From positions 7,158,564 through 7,222,563 of the forward strand of contig NZ_CP036266.1 in the NCBI RefSeq assembly GCF_007744075.1: a stretch of DNA of 64,000 nucleotides, written 5' to 3'. This document shows positions 9,292 to 49,524 of the stretch, piece by piece. This stretch comes from Gimesia chilikensis (GTDB taxonomy: Bacteria > Planctomycetota > Planctomycetia > Planctomycetales > Planctomycetaceae). Each line of letters begins with the position of its first letter. The stretch's first letter is position 1. The notes under the pieces were generated by a model. It was not told the origin of the DNA and did not search any database. It saw only the letters and a program-made list of their open reading frames with translations. The translations under genes and the position numbers were made by a program.

Positions 9292-9541
9292 GTTGTTCGA
9301 ACCAACTGTGGCACGCGGCGGGTTGGTGTGCTGGTTCCGGATCGAGCGATTACTCTGGGACCTCTTGTTGCCTGTGGCAGTCCCGGATTGCATCCGGGAC
9401 CACCCGGTCTTATAGAAAATGTAATTTTGCGAGAGCGTTCGGAATCTTGCTCTGTCAGTTTCCTGCTCGCTGCGCTCGGCCCGAATTGTATTCGGGCTTA
9501 CCCATTATTCTGGGTTGGTCGGGCCAACTGTGGCAGCTGGT
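9292..9541. repeat. Mosaic intergenic repeat, block 1
   Basis: Two modules shared with the 34.5-38.2 kb region. Module D (9292-9408) begins at a GTTCGAACCAACTGTG inverted repeat and runs through CGGCGGGTTGGTGTGCTGG and GGGACCTCTTGTTGCCTG to the hairpin CCCGGATTGCATCCGGG. Module C (9453-9506) is CTGTCAGTTTCCTGCTCGCT followed by CGGCCCGAATTGTATTCGGG. After it, GGTTGGTCGGGCCAACTGTG (from about 9512) starts a second, truncated module D. The order D-C is the reverse of the block near 34.8 kb. Confidence 0.85.
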
Positions 9542-30460: not shown

Positions 30461-31000
30461 ATGAACACTCCCGCAGACCATCCCGAATCGAGCGAATCTT
30501 TTTTCCGCCAGTTTTCCCAGTCGGACCGTAAGATCTACGGATACATCCTGGCGCTGGTGCTCGATGTAGCAGCTGCGGAAGATATTTTTCAGGAGACGTG
30601 CGTGATCCTCTGGAAGGAATATCCCCGCTATGATCCGGAACGGAGTTTTCTGAACTGGGCATACGGCATTGCCTTTAACCAGATCCGCAAGTACCGGCGG
30701 ACGTTCCAGAACCAGCGACTGATTTTCAGCGATGCGCTGGTGACCGTGCTGGCAGAGGATGTGTCCCAGATGGCAGAAGAACAGAGCGAACGTCAGCTGG
30801 CACTCACCCGTTGCCTGGAGAATCTGTCCTCCCCCGAGCGGGATCTGCTCGATTCCTATTACGGCGATCGACAGACCGCGGCCACGCTGGCTGAACGGGG
30901 GAACTGTTCGGTGCATGCGATTTACAAAACGATTAAAAAACTGAGGCGGGCGCTGCACGAATGCGTCAGCCGTCGACTTTCGAGTGAGGCTTCATCGTGA
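30461..31000 (+). CDS. ECF-type RNA polymerase sigma factor
   Basis: A 179-residue extracytoplasmic-function sigma factor of the planctomycete/verrucomicrobial type. Region 2 spans about residues 15-85 (FRQFSQSDRKIYGYILAL, AEDIFQETCVILWKEY, RSFLNWAYGIAFNQIRKYRR). Region 4 is near 118-175 (RCLENLSSPERDLLDSYY, then a helix-turn-helix in CSVHAIYKTIKKLRRALHE). Its stop overlaps the GTG start of the downstream FecR-like gene by four bases (GTGA), implying translational coupling with its probable anti-sigma factor. The nearby divergent PSCyt/DUF1501 unit is a candidate target. Confidence 0.93.
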   Translation: MNTPADHPESSESFFRQFSQSDRKIYGYILALVLDVAAAEDIFQETCVILWKEYPRYDPERSFLNWAYGIAFNQIRKYRRTFQNQRLIFSDALVTVLAEDVSQMAEEQSERQLALTRCLENLSSPERDLLDSYYGDRQTAATLAERGNCSVHAIYKTIKKLRRALHECVSRRLSSEASS

Positions 31001-32700
31001 CCCAACCCGATCCTGACATCCGCGAACAGATTCTGGAACTGGCCGACGCCCAGTGTGCGGGCATCATCACGGAAGACGAACTCGCTGCACTGGAAGGTCT
31101 GCTCACCGCGCATCCCGAGTATCGCCGCGAATACCTGAATTACGTTTTCGTGCACATCGGACTGGCGGGAACCGCCCAGGCGCGCGTGTTGCAGGATCCC
31201 GAAGCTGAATTACCGCTCAGCGTCAAACCTGCCACGGACAATACAAGCGAGCCCATCGAACGGGGCTACCTGGTGATGCTGATCCCGATTGTCTGTTCGG
31301 CGATCTGCCTGGGTGCGGTGGGTATCTTTCTGTTAATGGGTGATTTCCAAGGGCTGTGGGAACCGGAGATGGTTCTGCAGCAGCGTTCCAAATATTACTT
31401 CGATGACAGCGCCTCACCGCCGGAAGAAATCGCCAGCGTCAACCAGGTGGCACGGGCCCGCTGGGAACTGCTGGGGAACAGTCCGGCTGTCACCGATCGC
31501 TTCCAGCCGGGCACGGTCAAAGTGACGTCGGGTGAAGTCGAGTTTGCCTTTTCGGGCGGTGCAGACATTAACGTGGTCAGCCCTTCCCTGTTTGGCTTTG
31601 AACGGAAAGACCAGGGAACCCTGTTTTCCGGCAGCGTTTCGACGCAGCGTTCTGATCGCAAGGCGCTCTTTCGGCTGGAGACGCCGAGCATCGAGTTGAT
31701 CGACCAGGGGACAGAATACGAAGTCAGTGTGAATGAAGCGGCTGAGACGTTCGTGCATGTGCTGGACGGCCAGCTCGCGGTCAAACCCCGCGGTCGGCTG
31801 CCGCGCTTCTACTGGAACTTCGATGAAGCGCCCCAGACCGCGCTGTCCGATATGTTGAACCAGAGTCCGGTTCAGGCCGGAAAGAACGCGCTGCGGGTCC
31901 AGGGACTGATCGGACCGGGAGCCATTCAGTTCAACAACCGTCCCGATGCGAGTCTGCGGCTGGGGAACGGCGGCGGACAGGAAGTAGGAACCGGCGATTA
32001 TGCGGTCTCGACAGGCATCACCATCGAAGCACTGGTCGTTTCGGACTGGAAAGCAGCGGAGTCGCCTCAGACCCGGGCTCCCTTTGATTACGATGAAATC
32101 TTCCGCAAGGAGGATGGCAGCTATCGGATATTGCTCAGCTTTCAGAATGATGACAAAGCGGGAATCACACAGATTCCGCAGGTGGGTGATGGTCCCTGTC
32201 TCTCGTTTGGACTCTATCTCTCCGGGCTGGGTTACAGTGAACTGGACATGCCTCTGGACGGGAAAGAGGGCCGCCCCACGCTGGCTGAAATGCGTGATGG
32301 TCAGCCGCACCATATCGTCGCCACCTATAATGGCTGGACGGGTGAGAAAGCCATTTATATCGACGGCATCATGCGGATGAGCCATCGCTTCCCGGTGGGG
32401 ACGATGATCATCAGCGGCGGTGCAGCGCCCGCAGTGATCGGAAACCTGATCTCAGCACAATCGGCTACTCTGGTGGGCCGCGAACCGTTCAATGGCGTGA
32501 TCGACGAAGTCGCTTTCTACGACTATGCCCTCAATGCTGGCACGATCGCGACCCATTTCAGTCTGTTCAAAGCGGGCAAAGACTATTTCGACGGCCAGTT
32601 TCTGGACATCCTCCGCCAGGAAAAACAGGAAGATTACCTGTTAATCCACAAGGGACAGAAGATGAAATTCTCCGCGGAGACGGGCAAGCCGGTGCTTTAA
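30997..32700 (+). CDS. FecR-like anti-sigma protein with C-terminal LamG domain
   Basis: A 567-residue inner-membrane regulator. Residues 1-60 look like an anti-sigma domain (LADAQCAGIITEDELAALEG, HPEYRREYLNYVFVH). A membrane helix lies at about 88-112 (VMLIPIVCSAICLGAVGIFL). Then a FecR-type domain (GEVEFAFSGGADINVVSPS, IDQGTEYEVSVNEAAETFVH, LDGQLAVKPRG) and a concanavalin-like LamG domain (TGITIEALVVSDWK, HIVATYNGWTGEKAIYIDG, NGVIDEVAFYDYALN). The LamG part probably senses a polysaccharide outside the membrane and relays to the sigma factor. It is translationally coupled to the sigma factor gene. Confidence 0.9.
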   Translation: MTQPDPDIREQILELADAQCAGIITEDELAALEGLLTAHPEYRREYLNYVFVHIGLAGTAQARVLQDPEAELPLSVKPATDNTSEPIERGYLVMLIPIVCSAICLGAVGIFLLMGDFQGLWEPEMVLQQRSKYYFDDSASPPEEIASVNQVARARWELLGNSPAVTDRFQPGTVKVTSGEVEFAFSGGADINVVSPSLFGFERKDQGTLFSGSVSTQRSDRKALFRLETPSIELIDQGTEYEVSVNEAAETFVHVLDGQLAVKPRGRLPRFYWNFDEAPQTALSDMLNQSPVQAGKNALRVQGLIGPGAIQFNNRPDASLRLGNGGGQEVGTGDYAVSTGITIEALVVSDWKAAESPQTRAPFDYDEIFRKEDGSYRILLSFQNDDKAGITQIPQVGDGPCLSFGLYLSGLGYSELDMPLDGKEGRPTLAEMRDGQPHHIVATYNGWTGEKAIYIDGIMRMSHRFPVGTMIISGGAAPAVIGNLISAQSATLVGREPFNGVIDEVAFYDYALNAGTIATHFSLFKAGKDYFDGQFLDILRQEKQEDYLLIHKGQKMKFSAETGKPVL

Positions 32701-34404: not shown

Positions 34405-34936
34405 AAGGATTGTACCGTGCCAATGAGACCGTGGGCAGTATTTTGAAGCGTCGGTAGTTTATGTGATTCGAATTGGTGGGGGAATATTGATTTCAGGGTC
34501 TAGACGCAATGCCTGTTCGAAATTGGTGAGTTGGAATGGTACGTTACCGTTGTGATTTTCTACCACGAAAAGCACGAAAGACACGAAAATTCTGATAGGG
34601 ACGATCAGGTGTGTTCGGTTGTCGGTGACTGGTAAGTTCGGTTGAATTACCGTCGACCAACGTTTTGGGGCTCAGGGTTGGGGATCTGTTTATCGTTTCG
34701 ACCTTTTCTCTGTCAGTTTCCTGCTCGCTGCGCTCGGCCCGATTTTAATCGGGCTTACCCGTGATTCTTGAAAGGAAATAGCATTGTGTGAGCAGCGTTG
34801 GTCGAACCAACTGTGTAAGTCGGCGGGTTGGTGTGCTGGTTCCGAGTCGCTCGATTGCCCTGGGACCTCTTGTTGCCTGCGGTAATCTCGGATTGTATCC
34901 GCGACCGCCCCGCCCCTGGATTTTTTCTTTTTTTGA
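34405..34936. repeat. Mosaic intergenic repeat, block 2
   Basis: Contains module A (34561-34587, ACCACGAAAAGCACGAAAGA, a CACGAAA array), a CTCAGGGTTGG element (34671-34681), module C (34711-34762: CTGTCAGTTTCCTGCTCGCT, then the CGGCCCGATTTTAATCGGGC hairpin) and module D (34799-34915: TTGGTCGAACCAACTGTG through GGACCTCTTGTTGCCTGC to CGGATTGTATCCGCGACCGC). The CCCGGAT/ATCCGGG hairpin seen in block 1 is decayed here. 34405-34560 is plain AT-rich spacer. Confidence 0.85.
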
Positions 34937-34964
34937 TTGACACATTTGTAGCACTGGCTACAAT
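34937..34964 (+). promoter_or_regulatory. Strong promoter of the 35069 DUF1559 gene
   Basis: TTGACA (34937-34942) and TACAAT (34959-34964) with a 16-base spacer. The first TGTAGC palindrome (34947-34962) fills the spacer and overlaps the -10. The leader to the ATG at 35069 is about 100 bases. Confidence 0.7.
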
Positions 34965-35025
34965 ATCGGAGTATATGTAGCCCTGGCTACATTTTGCCGC
35001 TCACTGATTTGTAGCCTTGGCTACT
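34947..35025. promoter_or_regulatory. Array of three TGTAGCCnnGGCTACA palindromes, putative operator
   Basis: Three near-perfect 16-base palindromes: TGTAGCACTGGCTACA (34947-34962), TGTAGCCCTGGCTACA (34976-34991) and TGTAGCCTTGGCTACT (35010-35025). Starts are 29 and 34 bases apart, close to three helical turns, so a dimer could bind each on nearly the same face. The first covers the promoter spacer and -10, the other two lie downstream of the transcription start. This is the layout of a repressor operator array. The cognate regulator is unknown. Confidence 0.7.
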
Positions 35026-35068
35026 TTTCAAACACGCCTATTCTCCTGCCCTGTAAAGGTTTACCGTA

Positions 35069-36151
35069 ATGAGCTACCCGCCTGCCCGACTGTCCCGCCG
35101 GGGTTTTACGTTGATTGAACTGCTGGTGGTGATCGCGATTATTGCCACGTTGATTGCCCTGCTGTTGCCTGCAGTTCAGCAGGCGCGGGAGGCGGCGCGG
35201 CGGAGTCAGTGCAAAAATAACCTGAAGCAGCTGGGGCTGGCGTTACACAACTATCACGACACGCATTCCTGTTTTCCCGCGGGTTATTATTCGTATGGAA
35301 CCAGCGATGGTTCGGGGCCGGGCTGGGCGGAGATTGATGCGAATACCTGGGATGCGGCACCGGGCTGGTCCTGGAGCATGATGCTGCTGCCTTACCTGGA
35401 CCAGGCGAATGTCTATAACGCTCTAGACGTGAACCAGCCCTGCTGGAACCTGGCGAATGCGGGGGCTGTGCAGACAAAGCTGCCGGTCTTTCTGTGTCCG
35501 ACCGCTTCGGGCGGTGATGAGCCGTTCCTGGTGCGGGACGGAGCCGGCAGTCCGCTGTTGAAAGGGGGCGCGCAGCTACTGTTCGGTCGGTCGCATTATG
35601 TCGCCAGCCACGGTCAGGAATCGTGCTGGGGGGAATGCGGGGCGAGTACGACGGGCGTGATCTTCACGGATATTTACACCAAGACAACCAAAACGGTGAC
35701 GATTAACGGCGATGCTTCGAAGGTGGCAGATGGACCGTTCTTCCGTAATTCACGCACACGGATGCGGGACGCCACCGATGGTCTCTCGAATACGATTTTC
35801 CTGGGCGAACACTCTTCGCGACTGAGTGATAAAACCTGGGTGGGTGTGGTGCCGGGGGCGTTTACGCATCCCCAGTTTTCGACACCCGAAAACGGACCGG
35901 ACGCCGCGGCGACACTGTCGCTGGTGCATGCGGGACCTTCGGGAGGCGAGCTGGACATCACCGGGTTCCCGATTATCCATCCGGTGAACTTTCCGACATA
36001 CCATGTGGGGCAGATGTATTCCGAACATGTGGGGGGCGGGCATATCTGTCTGGGCGATGGTTCGGTGCGGTTTGTTTCTGAAAACATTGATCTGCTCCTC
36101 TGGGCGTCGCTCTCGAGTCTGAACGAGGGTGAATTGATTGGGGAGTTTTAA
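35069..36151 (+). CDS. DUF1559 pseudopilin-like protein
   Basis: A 360-residue protein with prepilin-type N-terminus ([20 protein letters not shown]) followed by the canonical DUF1559 opening ([36 protein letters not shown]). The domain ends with the family's [20 protein letters not shown] and GELIGEF. Such proteins are processed by prepilin peptidase and placed in the envelope; their role is unknown although they are among the most numerous families in planctomycetes. Transcription looks tightly controlled by three operator-like palindromes. A lipoprotein gene begins two bases after its stop. Confidence 0.93.
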
Positions 36152-36152
36152 C

Positions 36153-36464
36153 ATGCCACGTCGAATGTTTTTCTCACTGGTGGTGTTGCTCTGTGGAAGC
36201 CTGCTGCTGTCCGGCTGCGGGTATCCGGAGGTTTCGCCGAAGACGTATGAACTTTCCAAGGCCCTGTATTCGGTCTGTAACCAGAAGAGCACCGAGCGGC
36301 TGGTCAAAGTGCAAGCGCTGATTCAGAGTTCGCTGGAGCAGGAAGAGATCACCTCGCGGGAGGCGGACTGGTTGAACGAGATAATTAAACAGGCGCAGGA
36401 AGGCGAATGGGACGAGGCATTGCGGGAGTCCCGACAGATCATGGAAGATCAGGCGGGGCGGTGA
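36153..36464 (+). CDS. Small lipoprotein coupled to the DUF1559 gene
   Basis: A 103-residue lipoprotein. The ATG at 36153 is one base past the stop of the DUF1559 gene and follows GGGGAG inside that gene, so the two are translated as a pair. The signal MFFSLVVLLCGSLLLSGCG has its lipid cysteine near residue 22. The mature domain is a helical, charged segment (LVKVQALIQSSLEQEEITSR, ADWLNEIIKQAQEGEWDEAL). No known family. Similar short lipoproteins after DUF1559 genes could act as partners. Confidence 0.8.
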   Translation: MPRRMFFSLVVLLCGSLLLSGCGYPEVSPKTYELSKALYSVCNQKSTERLVKVQALIQSSLEQEEITSREADWLNEIIKQAQEGEWDEALRESRQIMEDQAGR

Positions 36465-46777: not shown

Positions 46778-47125
46778 TGGATGGAACTGCGGGCTGGTCG
46801 ACTTTTCGCTGTCAGGTTTTGGAGTCTCAAACGTCTTACCTCTGGGTAAGTTTTCAGGCCCCAGTCGGCTCCGATTTTATAACCATCGTTAATAAACTCA
46901 TGGTATCCACTTTTACAATCTGTTAAAATTAGATAAAAGACCATATATATGAACTACAAGCTACGATAAAAGGTTAAATACAAAAGGCTTTGGTCCCGCC
47001 GATGTGATTCATCCGAATCACGTACCAACCACCGAAATCATCATTGTTTCCCACAGAGCTCAATCTCATGTCGCGAGGCATGCAGATCTGTTTTGATTTA
47101 TTATAATTCAGGAGAGATGAAGAAC
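46778..47125. other. Intergenic leader of a DUF1559 gene
   Basis: About 350 bp, increasingly AT-rich from 46915. No consensus promoter pair is certain. A ribosome-binding CAGGAG sits at 47109-47114. Confidence 0.4.
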
Positions 47126-48100
47126 ATGAAACGTTTACCTTTGGGGATCCGGTTCAGGTGGAAGCTGGGATTCACCCTGATTGAATTGCTGGTCGTGATC
47201 GCGATTATCGCGATTCTGATCGCGTTGCTCTTACCGGCAGTTCAGCAGGCACGCGAAGCAGCACGCCGCAGCACCTGCAAAAACAGTCTTAAACAGATTG
47301 GACTGGCACTGCACAACTATCATGAAACCCATGGTGTTTTCCCGCCCGCCTATATCGACAGCGATCCGGGTTTGAACACACCAGCGGCTGCCACTTCCAA
47401 CCTGAACGGTCTGGGCTGGGCAACCATGATTCTGCCATTCATGGATCAGGCGCCACTTTATAATCAGATTGGAACGCAGACAGCCGGGTTCAAATATAAC
47501 TGGCTGGATTCTACTCACACCGGTTCTCTGACCAGCGCGATTCCCGCAGCCAAAGTAGTACTGCCGATCTATAATTGCCCCTCCGATCCCATGGGAGGTA
47601 TCAACACTGATTGCAGCAGTTACGGGAAATCAAACTACCTGGCTTGTGCGGCTACGGGTGCTAACAGCCGAAACGGTGCTTTCTATGTGAACTCGAAAAC
47701 ACAGATGAAATCCATCACCGATGGCAGCAGTAATACCCTGTTCGTAGGAGAACGGACCACGGCGAACGATCCCAGCAGTTCAACTGCCTGTGGTGGTTCC
47801 CCCTGTAACTGGGCCGGAGGATTGTGGATTGGTCCCCGGAACTATCCTTCTCCCGACACCTGGCACACCAGTCTGCGTGGACTGGATGTGGCTGTGAACG
47901 GTGGTTCGAGTACCATTTACATGATCAATGGATCCAGCATCAACTGGGGTCCTGCCTGGAATGCAGGAAGTACACACGTCGGTGGTGCTCACTTCCTGCT
48001 GGGCGACGGTCAGGTTCGGTTCCTTTCCGAGAACATTGACCTGGCAACCTATCGAGGACTCTACACCCGCAGTGGTGGTGAAGTGCTCGGCGAATTTTAA
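47126..48100 (+). CDS. DUF1559 pseudopilin-like protein (paralogue 1)
   Basis: A 324-residue protein with the prepilin N-terminus ([20 protein letters not shown]) and the DUF1559 domain opening [33 protein letters not shown], and ending [29 protein letters not shown]. The ATG at 47126 is chosen over those at 47117 and 47093 because it aligns residue for residue with the start of the paralogue at 48553, and because CAGGAG stands eleven bases ahead. It carries a strong terminator and so is an independent unit. Confidence 0.92.
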
Positions 48101-48552: not shown

Positions 48553-49524
48553 ATGAGACGACCTACGTTCCCGCTCCGATTCCGGTGGCGGCTCGGCTTC
48601 ACACTGATCGAACTTCTGGTGGTAATCGCAATCATTGCTATTTTGATCGCGCTCTTGTTACCCGCTGTGCAACAGGCACGTGAAGCAGCCCGTCGCAGTA
48701 CCTGTAAGAACAATCTGAAGCAGATCGGACTGGCCTTACATAATTATCATGAGACACATGGCGTCTTTCCTCCCGGTTACATGGACAACGATTTAAACTT
48801 TACCGCGTCCAAAGGCTCCGGTACCGCTGCCAACAACAACGGCATCGGCTGGGGAGCCATGATTCTACCATTCATGGATCAGGGACCTCTGTATAACCAG
48901 TTGTCATCCCAGACGAATCAGTTTGGTGAACACTGGAGTGTCAGCGCGGGTACGCTGGCGAAAACCGTTCTGCCTGCTTATGTCTGTCCGTCTGACCCTA
49001 TGGGTGGAATCAACACCGATAAGAGCAGCTTCGGTAAGTCCAACTACCTGGGCAGCCACGGAACTTCAGCAGCGAATGCGACCAACGGGATTCTGTTCGG
49101 TAACTCAAAGACCCGCATCCGCGACATCACCGATGGAACCAGTAATACCATTCTGGTTTCCGAACGTACCACCAAAAGTGAAGGTTCCGGCACAACCGGT
49201 TGTGGTGGTTCGGCCTGTAACTGGGCCGGTGGTCTGTGGGTTGGCCCACGTTACACTTCGAGCATGTCAACCTGGCATCCCGGGATGTACCACTTTGATG
49301 TTTCCAACTTTGGTGGAGCCAACGCAACTTATCTGATTAACAGTTCAGCTGCAACCTGGGGTGATGACTGGACCTCATCCAGTGCTCACGTCGGTGGCGT
49401 GCACATGCTGTTGTGTGACGGTCAGGTTCGCTTCATCAGCGAAAACATCAGTAGTGGCAGCTCTACTTCAACTTACTATCAACTCGTCACCCGCAGCGGT
49501 GGTGAAGTCGTTGGCGAATTCTAA
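48553..49524 (+). CDS. DUF1559 pseudopilin-like protein (paralogue 2)
   Basis: A 323-residue paralogue of the preceding gene: [57 protein letters not shown], then [56 protein letters not shown] and the [19 protein letters not shown] end. The two share over half of their residues by eye and carry the same [12 protein letters not shown] cysteine element, so they arose by tandem duplication. Preceded by AAGGA and ended by its own terminator. Confidence 0.92.

Follow-up and report, generated by a model that had tools for sequence, protein, structure and literature searches.

What controls a DUF1559 gene whose promoter is overlaid by an array of three near-perfect palindromes? The gene lies in a 64,000-nt stretch of the Gimesia chilikensis chromosome (the window, in whose positions the array and its operon are numbered; C1 denotes the chromosome contig of the same genome) and is followed by a small lipoprotein gene. 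DUF1559 is the largest paralog group of Planctopirus limnophila, with 68 genes, and is described there as being of unknown function (PMC10632474). Our answer is that the three palindromes are very probably operators of a manganese-activated repressor of the Escherichia coli MntR type, which is encoded elsewhere in the genome and co-controls a metal transporter operon. What the DNA gives directly is the sites and their overlap with the promoter, two operons carrying them, their conservation, their co-occurrence and adjacency with mntR, and a core common to the MntR-controlled promoters of E. coli.

A scan of the window returned three 16-base palindromes upstream of the DUF1559 gene, starting at 34947, 34976 and 35010 with start-to-start distances of 29 and 34 bp, as an earlier note on this DNA had described them. 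Operator 1, which resembles an MntR box (TGTAGCACTGGCTACA, 34947–34962), lies in the spacer between a −35 hexamer TTGACA (34937–34942, plus strand) and a −10 hexamer TACAAT (34959–34964, plus strand), and its right half has bases in common with the −10. Operator 2 (TGTAGCCCTGGCTACA, 34976–34991) is just 3′ of the likely transcription start, and operator 3 (TGTAGCCTTGGCTACT, 35010–35025) is less conserved, occurring in 7 of 14 genus promoters; all three were found by pattern scans and have no strand. Their shared form is TGTAGC-N4-GCTAC(A/T), that is, TGTAGC-N4-GCTACA with a final T in box 3, and the core TAGC-N4-GCTA is present in each. With at most one mismatch allowed, the window holds three copies of TGTAGC-N4-GCTACA where 0.05 would be expected, and 0 of 100 shuffles reached that count. 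The pattern with which the array was first described, TGTAGCCnnGGCTACA, is exact in the middle box only and has one mismatch in each of the other two; when three mismatches were allowed in the window, it was found three times against 1.38 expected and 17 of 100 shuffles reached that count, which is not significant.

The placement of the first palindrome between TTGACA and TACAAT was borne out: a consensus scan gave a promoter with a spacer of 16 and 11 of 12 consensus letters, although shuffles of the same 2 kb also yielded promoter-like sites (mean 1.0). When the 14 genus promoters were aligned, both hexamers were invariant, and so was every one of the 24 half-site bases in boxes 1 and 2 (GATTGACA, at the −35, is identical across the 14), whereas the surroundings had drifted (mean conservation 0.65 over 179 aligned reference positions). 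Boxes were present upstream of the DUF1559–lipoprotein pair in all 14 genus genomes that have it (three boxes in 7, two in 7), and the array is therefore kept in orthologous promoters of relatives, as the earlier reading of it as an operator demanded. The pair was not found in the genus genomes G006, G007 and G015 (76, 92 and 74% complete).

In the 8.29-Mb single-contig genome of G. chilikensis, the exact form TGTAGC-N4-GCTACA occurs at three sites in two loci, namely boxes 1 and 2 of the array and a box at C1:601287. The latter begins 63 bp upstream of an operon encoding a metal-binding lipoprotein (the substrate-binding protein, SBP), an ATPase and two permeases of an ATP-binding cassette (ABC) transporter; its promoter, read by eye, is TTGACA-16-TATAAA, and the box starts 10 bases past the −10. 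The best solved match of the SBP was TroA of Treponema (252 bits), and the protein also matched Pfam ZnuA. An exact site precedes the transporter in 17 of 17 genus genomes. Together these genomes hold 51 exact sites against 16 for a reversed control pattern, of which 17 are upstream of the transporter and 28 upstream of the DUF1559 pair, the remaining 6 preceding a further DtxR-family gene. The earlier idea of a repressor switch for one surface protein thus stands as far as the operator array goes, but the array is not dedicated to that protein, since the metal ABC transporter operon shares the site.

Which regulator would read these boxes? The metal-binding domain of DtxR-type regulators, PF02742, gave five matches in the G. 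chilikensis genome: two permease tails, a three-domain FeoA-bearing protein, a 127-residue frame and a 139-residue protein. The last (C1:6636557–6636973) consists of PF01325 and PF02742 with no third FeoA domain, and it passes the cut-off of NCBIfam NF008273, “manganese-binding transcriptional regulator MntR” (164.8 vs 153 bits). Its best solved match was 2h09, an MntR, and its EDYxE, RHE and EGIEHH motifs align with 2h09 and 1on1; these motifs hold the metal ligands of Bacillus subtilis MntR (D8, E11, H77, E99, E102 and H103), 1on1 being the protein of that organism. Within the genus, MntR is whole in 15 genomes and cut by a contig end in G004. Because mntR lies 0.56 Mb from the array it would act in trans, and with the same box at the transporter operon this agrees with the earlier suggestion of a trans-acting regulator of several loci. 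Both permeases of the transporter (L013:3552–6382) end in the PF02742 domain, as if sensing their own metal.

The earlier note knew of no described regulon with this operator, and here it has to be corrected. In E. coli K-12, which served as a yardstick, TAGC-N4-GCTA is found 18 bp upstream of mntH and at two places in the mntS–mntR interval (expected 0.09 and 0.03 per stretch; a second match in the mntH stretch is inside the gene), and we take these sites to be the bound MntR boxes. The E. coli MntR miniregulon comprises mntH, mntS and mntP (PMC3852070, PMC4361602). G. chilikensis shares with it an MntR of the same NCBIfam equivalog and the TAGC-N4-GCTA core; it differs in the outer bases, which are TG in Gimesia, in its targets, which are an ABC transporter and a DUF1559–lipoprotein pair, and in that mntR is unlinked.

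In other genera, mntR frequently lies next to the genes in question and is divergent from them. We compared 91 mntR neighbourhoods (86 of 90 outside-genus MntR matches plus 5 from a separate search; G171, G266, G346 and G371 were omitted). The divergent neighbour was an orthologous DUF1559 gene (at least 42% identity) in 45, the transporter SBP gene in 14, a different DUF1559 gene in 3 and a permease-like frame in 1. At the 62 loci where this neighbour was a DUF1559 or SBP gene, the intergenic region was then searched without reference to the motif, using all 256 half-sites at spacers of 0–8 (2304 combinations). The best palindrome of the 2304 was TAGC-N4-GCTA, exact in 55 of the 62 regions; the runners-up were shifted or flanking variants of this palindrome, and no unrelated one exceeded 6. 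In letter shuffles of the same regions, TAGC-N4-GCTA had a mean of 0.27 and a maximum of 2.

A second scan covered the best 80 of 154 relatives, partly of the same species as the first. The lipoprotein gene adjoined the DUF1559 gene in 78 (one of the others is cut by a contig end, and in one the gene was not found), and mntR was divergent beside the DUF1559 gene in 63, with the exact core in 56 of these 63. Where mntR was not adjacent and enough upstream DNA was available (n = 14), the core was present in 6 and not in 8; three more were cut by contig ends. The outer half-site bases vary by lineage: the G. chilikensis genome has TG, whereas TT or GT is found at many planctomycete loci elsewhere. 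Outside the genus the strict pattern matched in 3 of 42 genomes (G019, G051 and G056), none of the matches being beside transporter or DUF1559-pair genes; about 2 kb from the G051 site there is a DUF1559 gene of 32% identity. At three loci (L184:6392–6434, L185:1315–1387 and L241), mntR is divergent from a different DUF1559 gene (32–34% identity) and has two or three boxes upstream, and it seems that DUF1559 genes came to lie beside mntR more than once.

Presence of the boxes also followed presence of mntR. For this comparison sites with up to two mismatches were accepted, and we used 30 relatives for the DUF1559 pair and 44 genomes for the SBP, omitting 2 of 32 genomes with lipoprotein matches (G031 and G046, both weak) and 9 of 53 with SBP matches (none with mntR). 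Of the 21 genomes with mntR, 20 had sites upstream of the DUF1559 pair, as against none of the 9 lacking mntR; among genomes outside the genus the figures were 6 of 7 versus 0 of 9 (p = 0.0009). For the SBP, sites were found in 22 of 25 genomes with mntR versus 1 of 19 without, the one being G015 (74% complete), and outside the genus in 6 of 9 versus 0 of 18 (p = 0.0003; in one of those without mntR, just 10 bp of upstream DNA was available). Because the genomes are related, they are not independent samples, and the p values should be read only as a guide.

Could another metal regulator own the operator? A Fur-family zinc or iron repressor (Zur or Fur), with the transporter and the DUF1559 pair serving zinc, is the best of the alternatives and is nonetheless improbable. 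The G. chilikensis genome, the one in which the Fur family was sought, has three PF01475 (Fur-family) matches, and the SBP resembles Pfam ZnuA, the zinc protein AztC of NCBIfam (below cut-off) and the TroA structure; however, the boxes track mntR both in adjacency and in presence and absence, and their core is that of the E. coli MntR-controlled promoters. Slightly less probable again is that another DtxR-family protein binds the boxes instead of, or beside, MntR. The three-domain FeoA-bearing protein at C1:6617048 is a clear family member, and two genus genomes have exact boxes in the divergent upstream region of a further FeoA-bearing DtxR gene. This is countered by the outside-genus mntR genomes, in which boxes occur although 8 of 10 have no match to the long FeoA-bearing type (G018, G020, G021, G023, G027, G030, G033 and G054; their best PF02742 matches, E 2e-20 to 5e-9, are in permease-size or short frames), and by genomes that have the long type and no mntR, in which the target genes have no boxes. 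Least probable is a role of the repeats as hairpins in an mRNA leader, serving attenuation or transcript stability. Box 1, whose half-sites are invariant in 14 promoters, would sit untranscribed between −35 and −10, any DNA palindrome folds likewise and boxes are found between divergent genes too. In favour of such a role, boxes 2 and 3 fall within the likely leader and can pair with one another (z −2.99; 1 of 200 shuffles was equally good).

As to the further DtxR-family gene, in G001 (L440:6812–6858) two exact boxes lie between it and a divergent Phenol_MetA_deg (PF13557) gene, and contigs C2 and C12 of G012 have similar sites before it; its FeoA domain was checked in G001. G. chilikensis has a 127-residue relative, with no box at two mismatches within the surrounding 16 kb. 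Outside the genus, the long FeoA-bearing DtxR protein and the short MntR almost seem to exclude each other.

Several observations weigh against MntR as the regulator of these boxes. In the G. chilikensis genome the reversed control pattern also has three exact sites, so that on the earlier question of random occurrence the restriction of exact sites to two loci speaks for an operator and their number does not; the case therefore rests on place and conservation. It is on these grounds too, and not by genome-wide number, that we rejected a chance or repeat-element origin of the boxes. At one to two mismatches there are fewer sites than for the reversed control (11 vs 54 and 12 vs 55), and we accordingly claim no weak targets. 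Six of the 51 exact genus sites precede another DtxR-family gene (2 in G001, 4 in G012). In the genus, mntR does not adjoin the two target loci; no box was seen by eye in the approximately 460 bp upstream of the G. chilikensis mntR, and MntR was not found in G015 (74% complete) though its transporter site is present. Elsewhere, 28 of the 91 mntR loci had none of the neighbours named above, with the exact core in 1 of the 28, and the core was absent from 7 of the 62 intergenic regions and from 7 of 63 in the second scan. The one genome with mntR in which the DUF1559 pair had no site is G021, where the core is exact at two places and the outer bases differ; the DUF1559 sites of G020 have two mismatches each, and the sites of G020 and G027 are weak. 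Of the nine non-genus mntR genomes, three are without a site upstream of the SBP homologue, and in one of the other six the site has two mismatches. Finally, the SBP passed the cut-off of no NCBIfam model (zinc AztC was best, with manganese/iron models next), and by homology manganese and zinc are therefore both possible.

If the boxes are MntR operators, manganese-loaded MntR dimers would sit over the −35/−10 region and just downstream of it and switch the DUF1559–lipoprotein operon off, with RNA polymerase blocked at box 1 and boxes 2 and 3 assisting. The same MntR would silence the TroA-like manganese/zinc ABC transporter operon through one box across its start region, and at low manganese both operons would come on together. 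Binding, manganese as the signal and repression are what we infer from the MntR family.

What would the DUF1559–lipoprotein pair do under such control? The DUF1559 gene (35069–36151, plus strand) encodes 360 residues with a prepilin-type N terminus and a C-terminal H-X9-DG motif and belongs to the MntR-type subfamily. The protein scored above the Pfam gathering cut-offs for PF07596 (196.7 vs 23.3 bits) and N_methyl (30.9 vs 21.2) and above that of the H-X9-DG motif model TIGR04294 (31.4 vs 19). The partner gene (36153–36464, plus strand) encodes a lipoprotein of 103 residues with a signal peptide and, by eye, an LSGC lipobox. That the two form one operon, as previously proposed, is supported by the lipoprotein ATG at 36153, one base past the DUF1559 stop, and by their adjacency in 78 of 80 relatives.

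Six residues of the DUF1559 protein (H248, H287, E294, H304, H312 and M316 of the precursor; codons at 35810–36016, plus strand) were invariant in 69 of 69 aligned subfamily members (at least 45% identity). The full set was found in none of 29 DUF1559 paralogs from the same genome, the best-scoring among 141 PF07596 matches, some of which are pieces of one gene, and in two of ten more distant DUF1559 proteins, both borderline members at 44–45% identity. Two more DUF1559 genes in the window (47093–48100 and 48553–49524), with 37% identity to the array gene, do not have it. These His, Glu and Met residues are compatible with a metal site, for which the sequence does not name the metal. A tie between the set and the regulator is loosened by the three non-orthologous mntR-adjacent DUF1559 proteins (32–34% identity), which are without it, and by DUF1559 pairs in genomes without MntR, which have it; the set is therefore characteristic of the subfamily rather than of control by MntR.

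A first AlphaFold run of the DUF1559 protein (38 alignment rows) gave a predicted local distance difference test (pLDDT) score of 66.6, with the His region below 50, and was not used. The second model (76 rows, N-terminal helix omitted) reached a pLDDT of 91.7 and a predicted template modelling (pTM) score of 0.90. A Foldseek search of the PDB with this model gave no match at E ≤ 0.001 (best 2.8), and a profile of the protein gave none against the PDB at E ≤ 1. The lipoprotein had no Pfam match at E ≤ 0.01; its one strong PDB match, 7rdr (E 6e-8), is a designed circular repeat protein, and it was judged a helical look-alike.

It is conceivable, at somewhat less than an even chance, that the DUF1559 product is a pilin-like protein anchored in the envelope, that the His, Glu and Met residues of its subfamily bind Mn(II) or a similar metal and that with the lipoprotein it aids metal capture. 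That the pair wins metal at the envelope is suggested by analogy with an MntR-controlled module of Stenotrophomonas maltophilia, TBDR-pTFP, whose reporter is described as on only under joint manganese and iron limitation (PMC13217887). The likeness extends to envelope proteins of unknown function under MntR, proximity to mntR and a box between −35 and −10 (PMC13217887); Gimesia differs from it in its proteins, a DUF1559 protein of pilin-like type and a small lipoprotein.

Like troABCD-troR of Treponema, the Gimesia transporter has a binding protein of the TroA type and a promoter dyad that would be controlled by a DtxR-family protein (PMC2628430). It is unlike that system in that troR is inside the operon in Treponema, whose operator spans 18 bp and for which no DUF1559 partner is named (PMC2628430). 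The protein of the array gene has the N_methyl prepilin motif, the PF07596 domain and the H-X9-DG motif of the expanded planctomycete DUF1559/SBP_bac_10 (PF07596) family and is set apart from the 29 paralogs by the invariant His/Glu/Met set and the boxes. In T. immobilis, DUF1559 proteins are reported from the detergent fractions S2 and S3 (PMC8567305). Operator and regulator are of an already known kind, and the DUF1559–lipoprotein target is new to the MntR regulon as far as our literature search tells: in the open-licence literature, covered mostly by titles and the start of abstracts, no paper tied DUF1559 or a planctomycete to MntR.

Two short interspersed repeats bracket the DUF1559–lipoprotein operon on both sides, with 0 expected by chance. 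A repeat scan placed CACGAAAGACACGAAA at window positions 34573, 36526 and 37848 and TCCTGCTCGCTGCGCTCGG at 9461, 34719, 36649 and 37994. Further upstream, at 30461–32700, the translations show by eye a sigma-factor-like gene and, after it, a gene resembling fecR whose product has a LamG-like part.

More tentatively still, the pair may be a new manganese-capture device, in which a prepilin-processed envelope protein with a four-His/Glu/Met site and a small lipoprotein would feed a TroA-type transporter, and the DUF1559 family may be a kit of ligand-specific capture proteins, each with its own nutrient regulator. One branch of DUF1559 is now tied to a metal regulator, a transporter and a candidate metal site, which makes the function of such a protein directly and cheaply testable, and the rest of the family may be read in the same way, by seeking the regulator of each branch.
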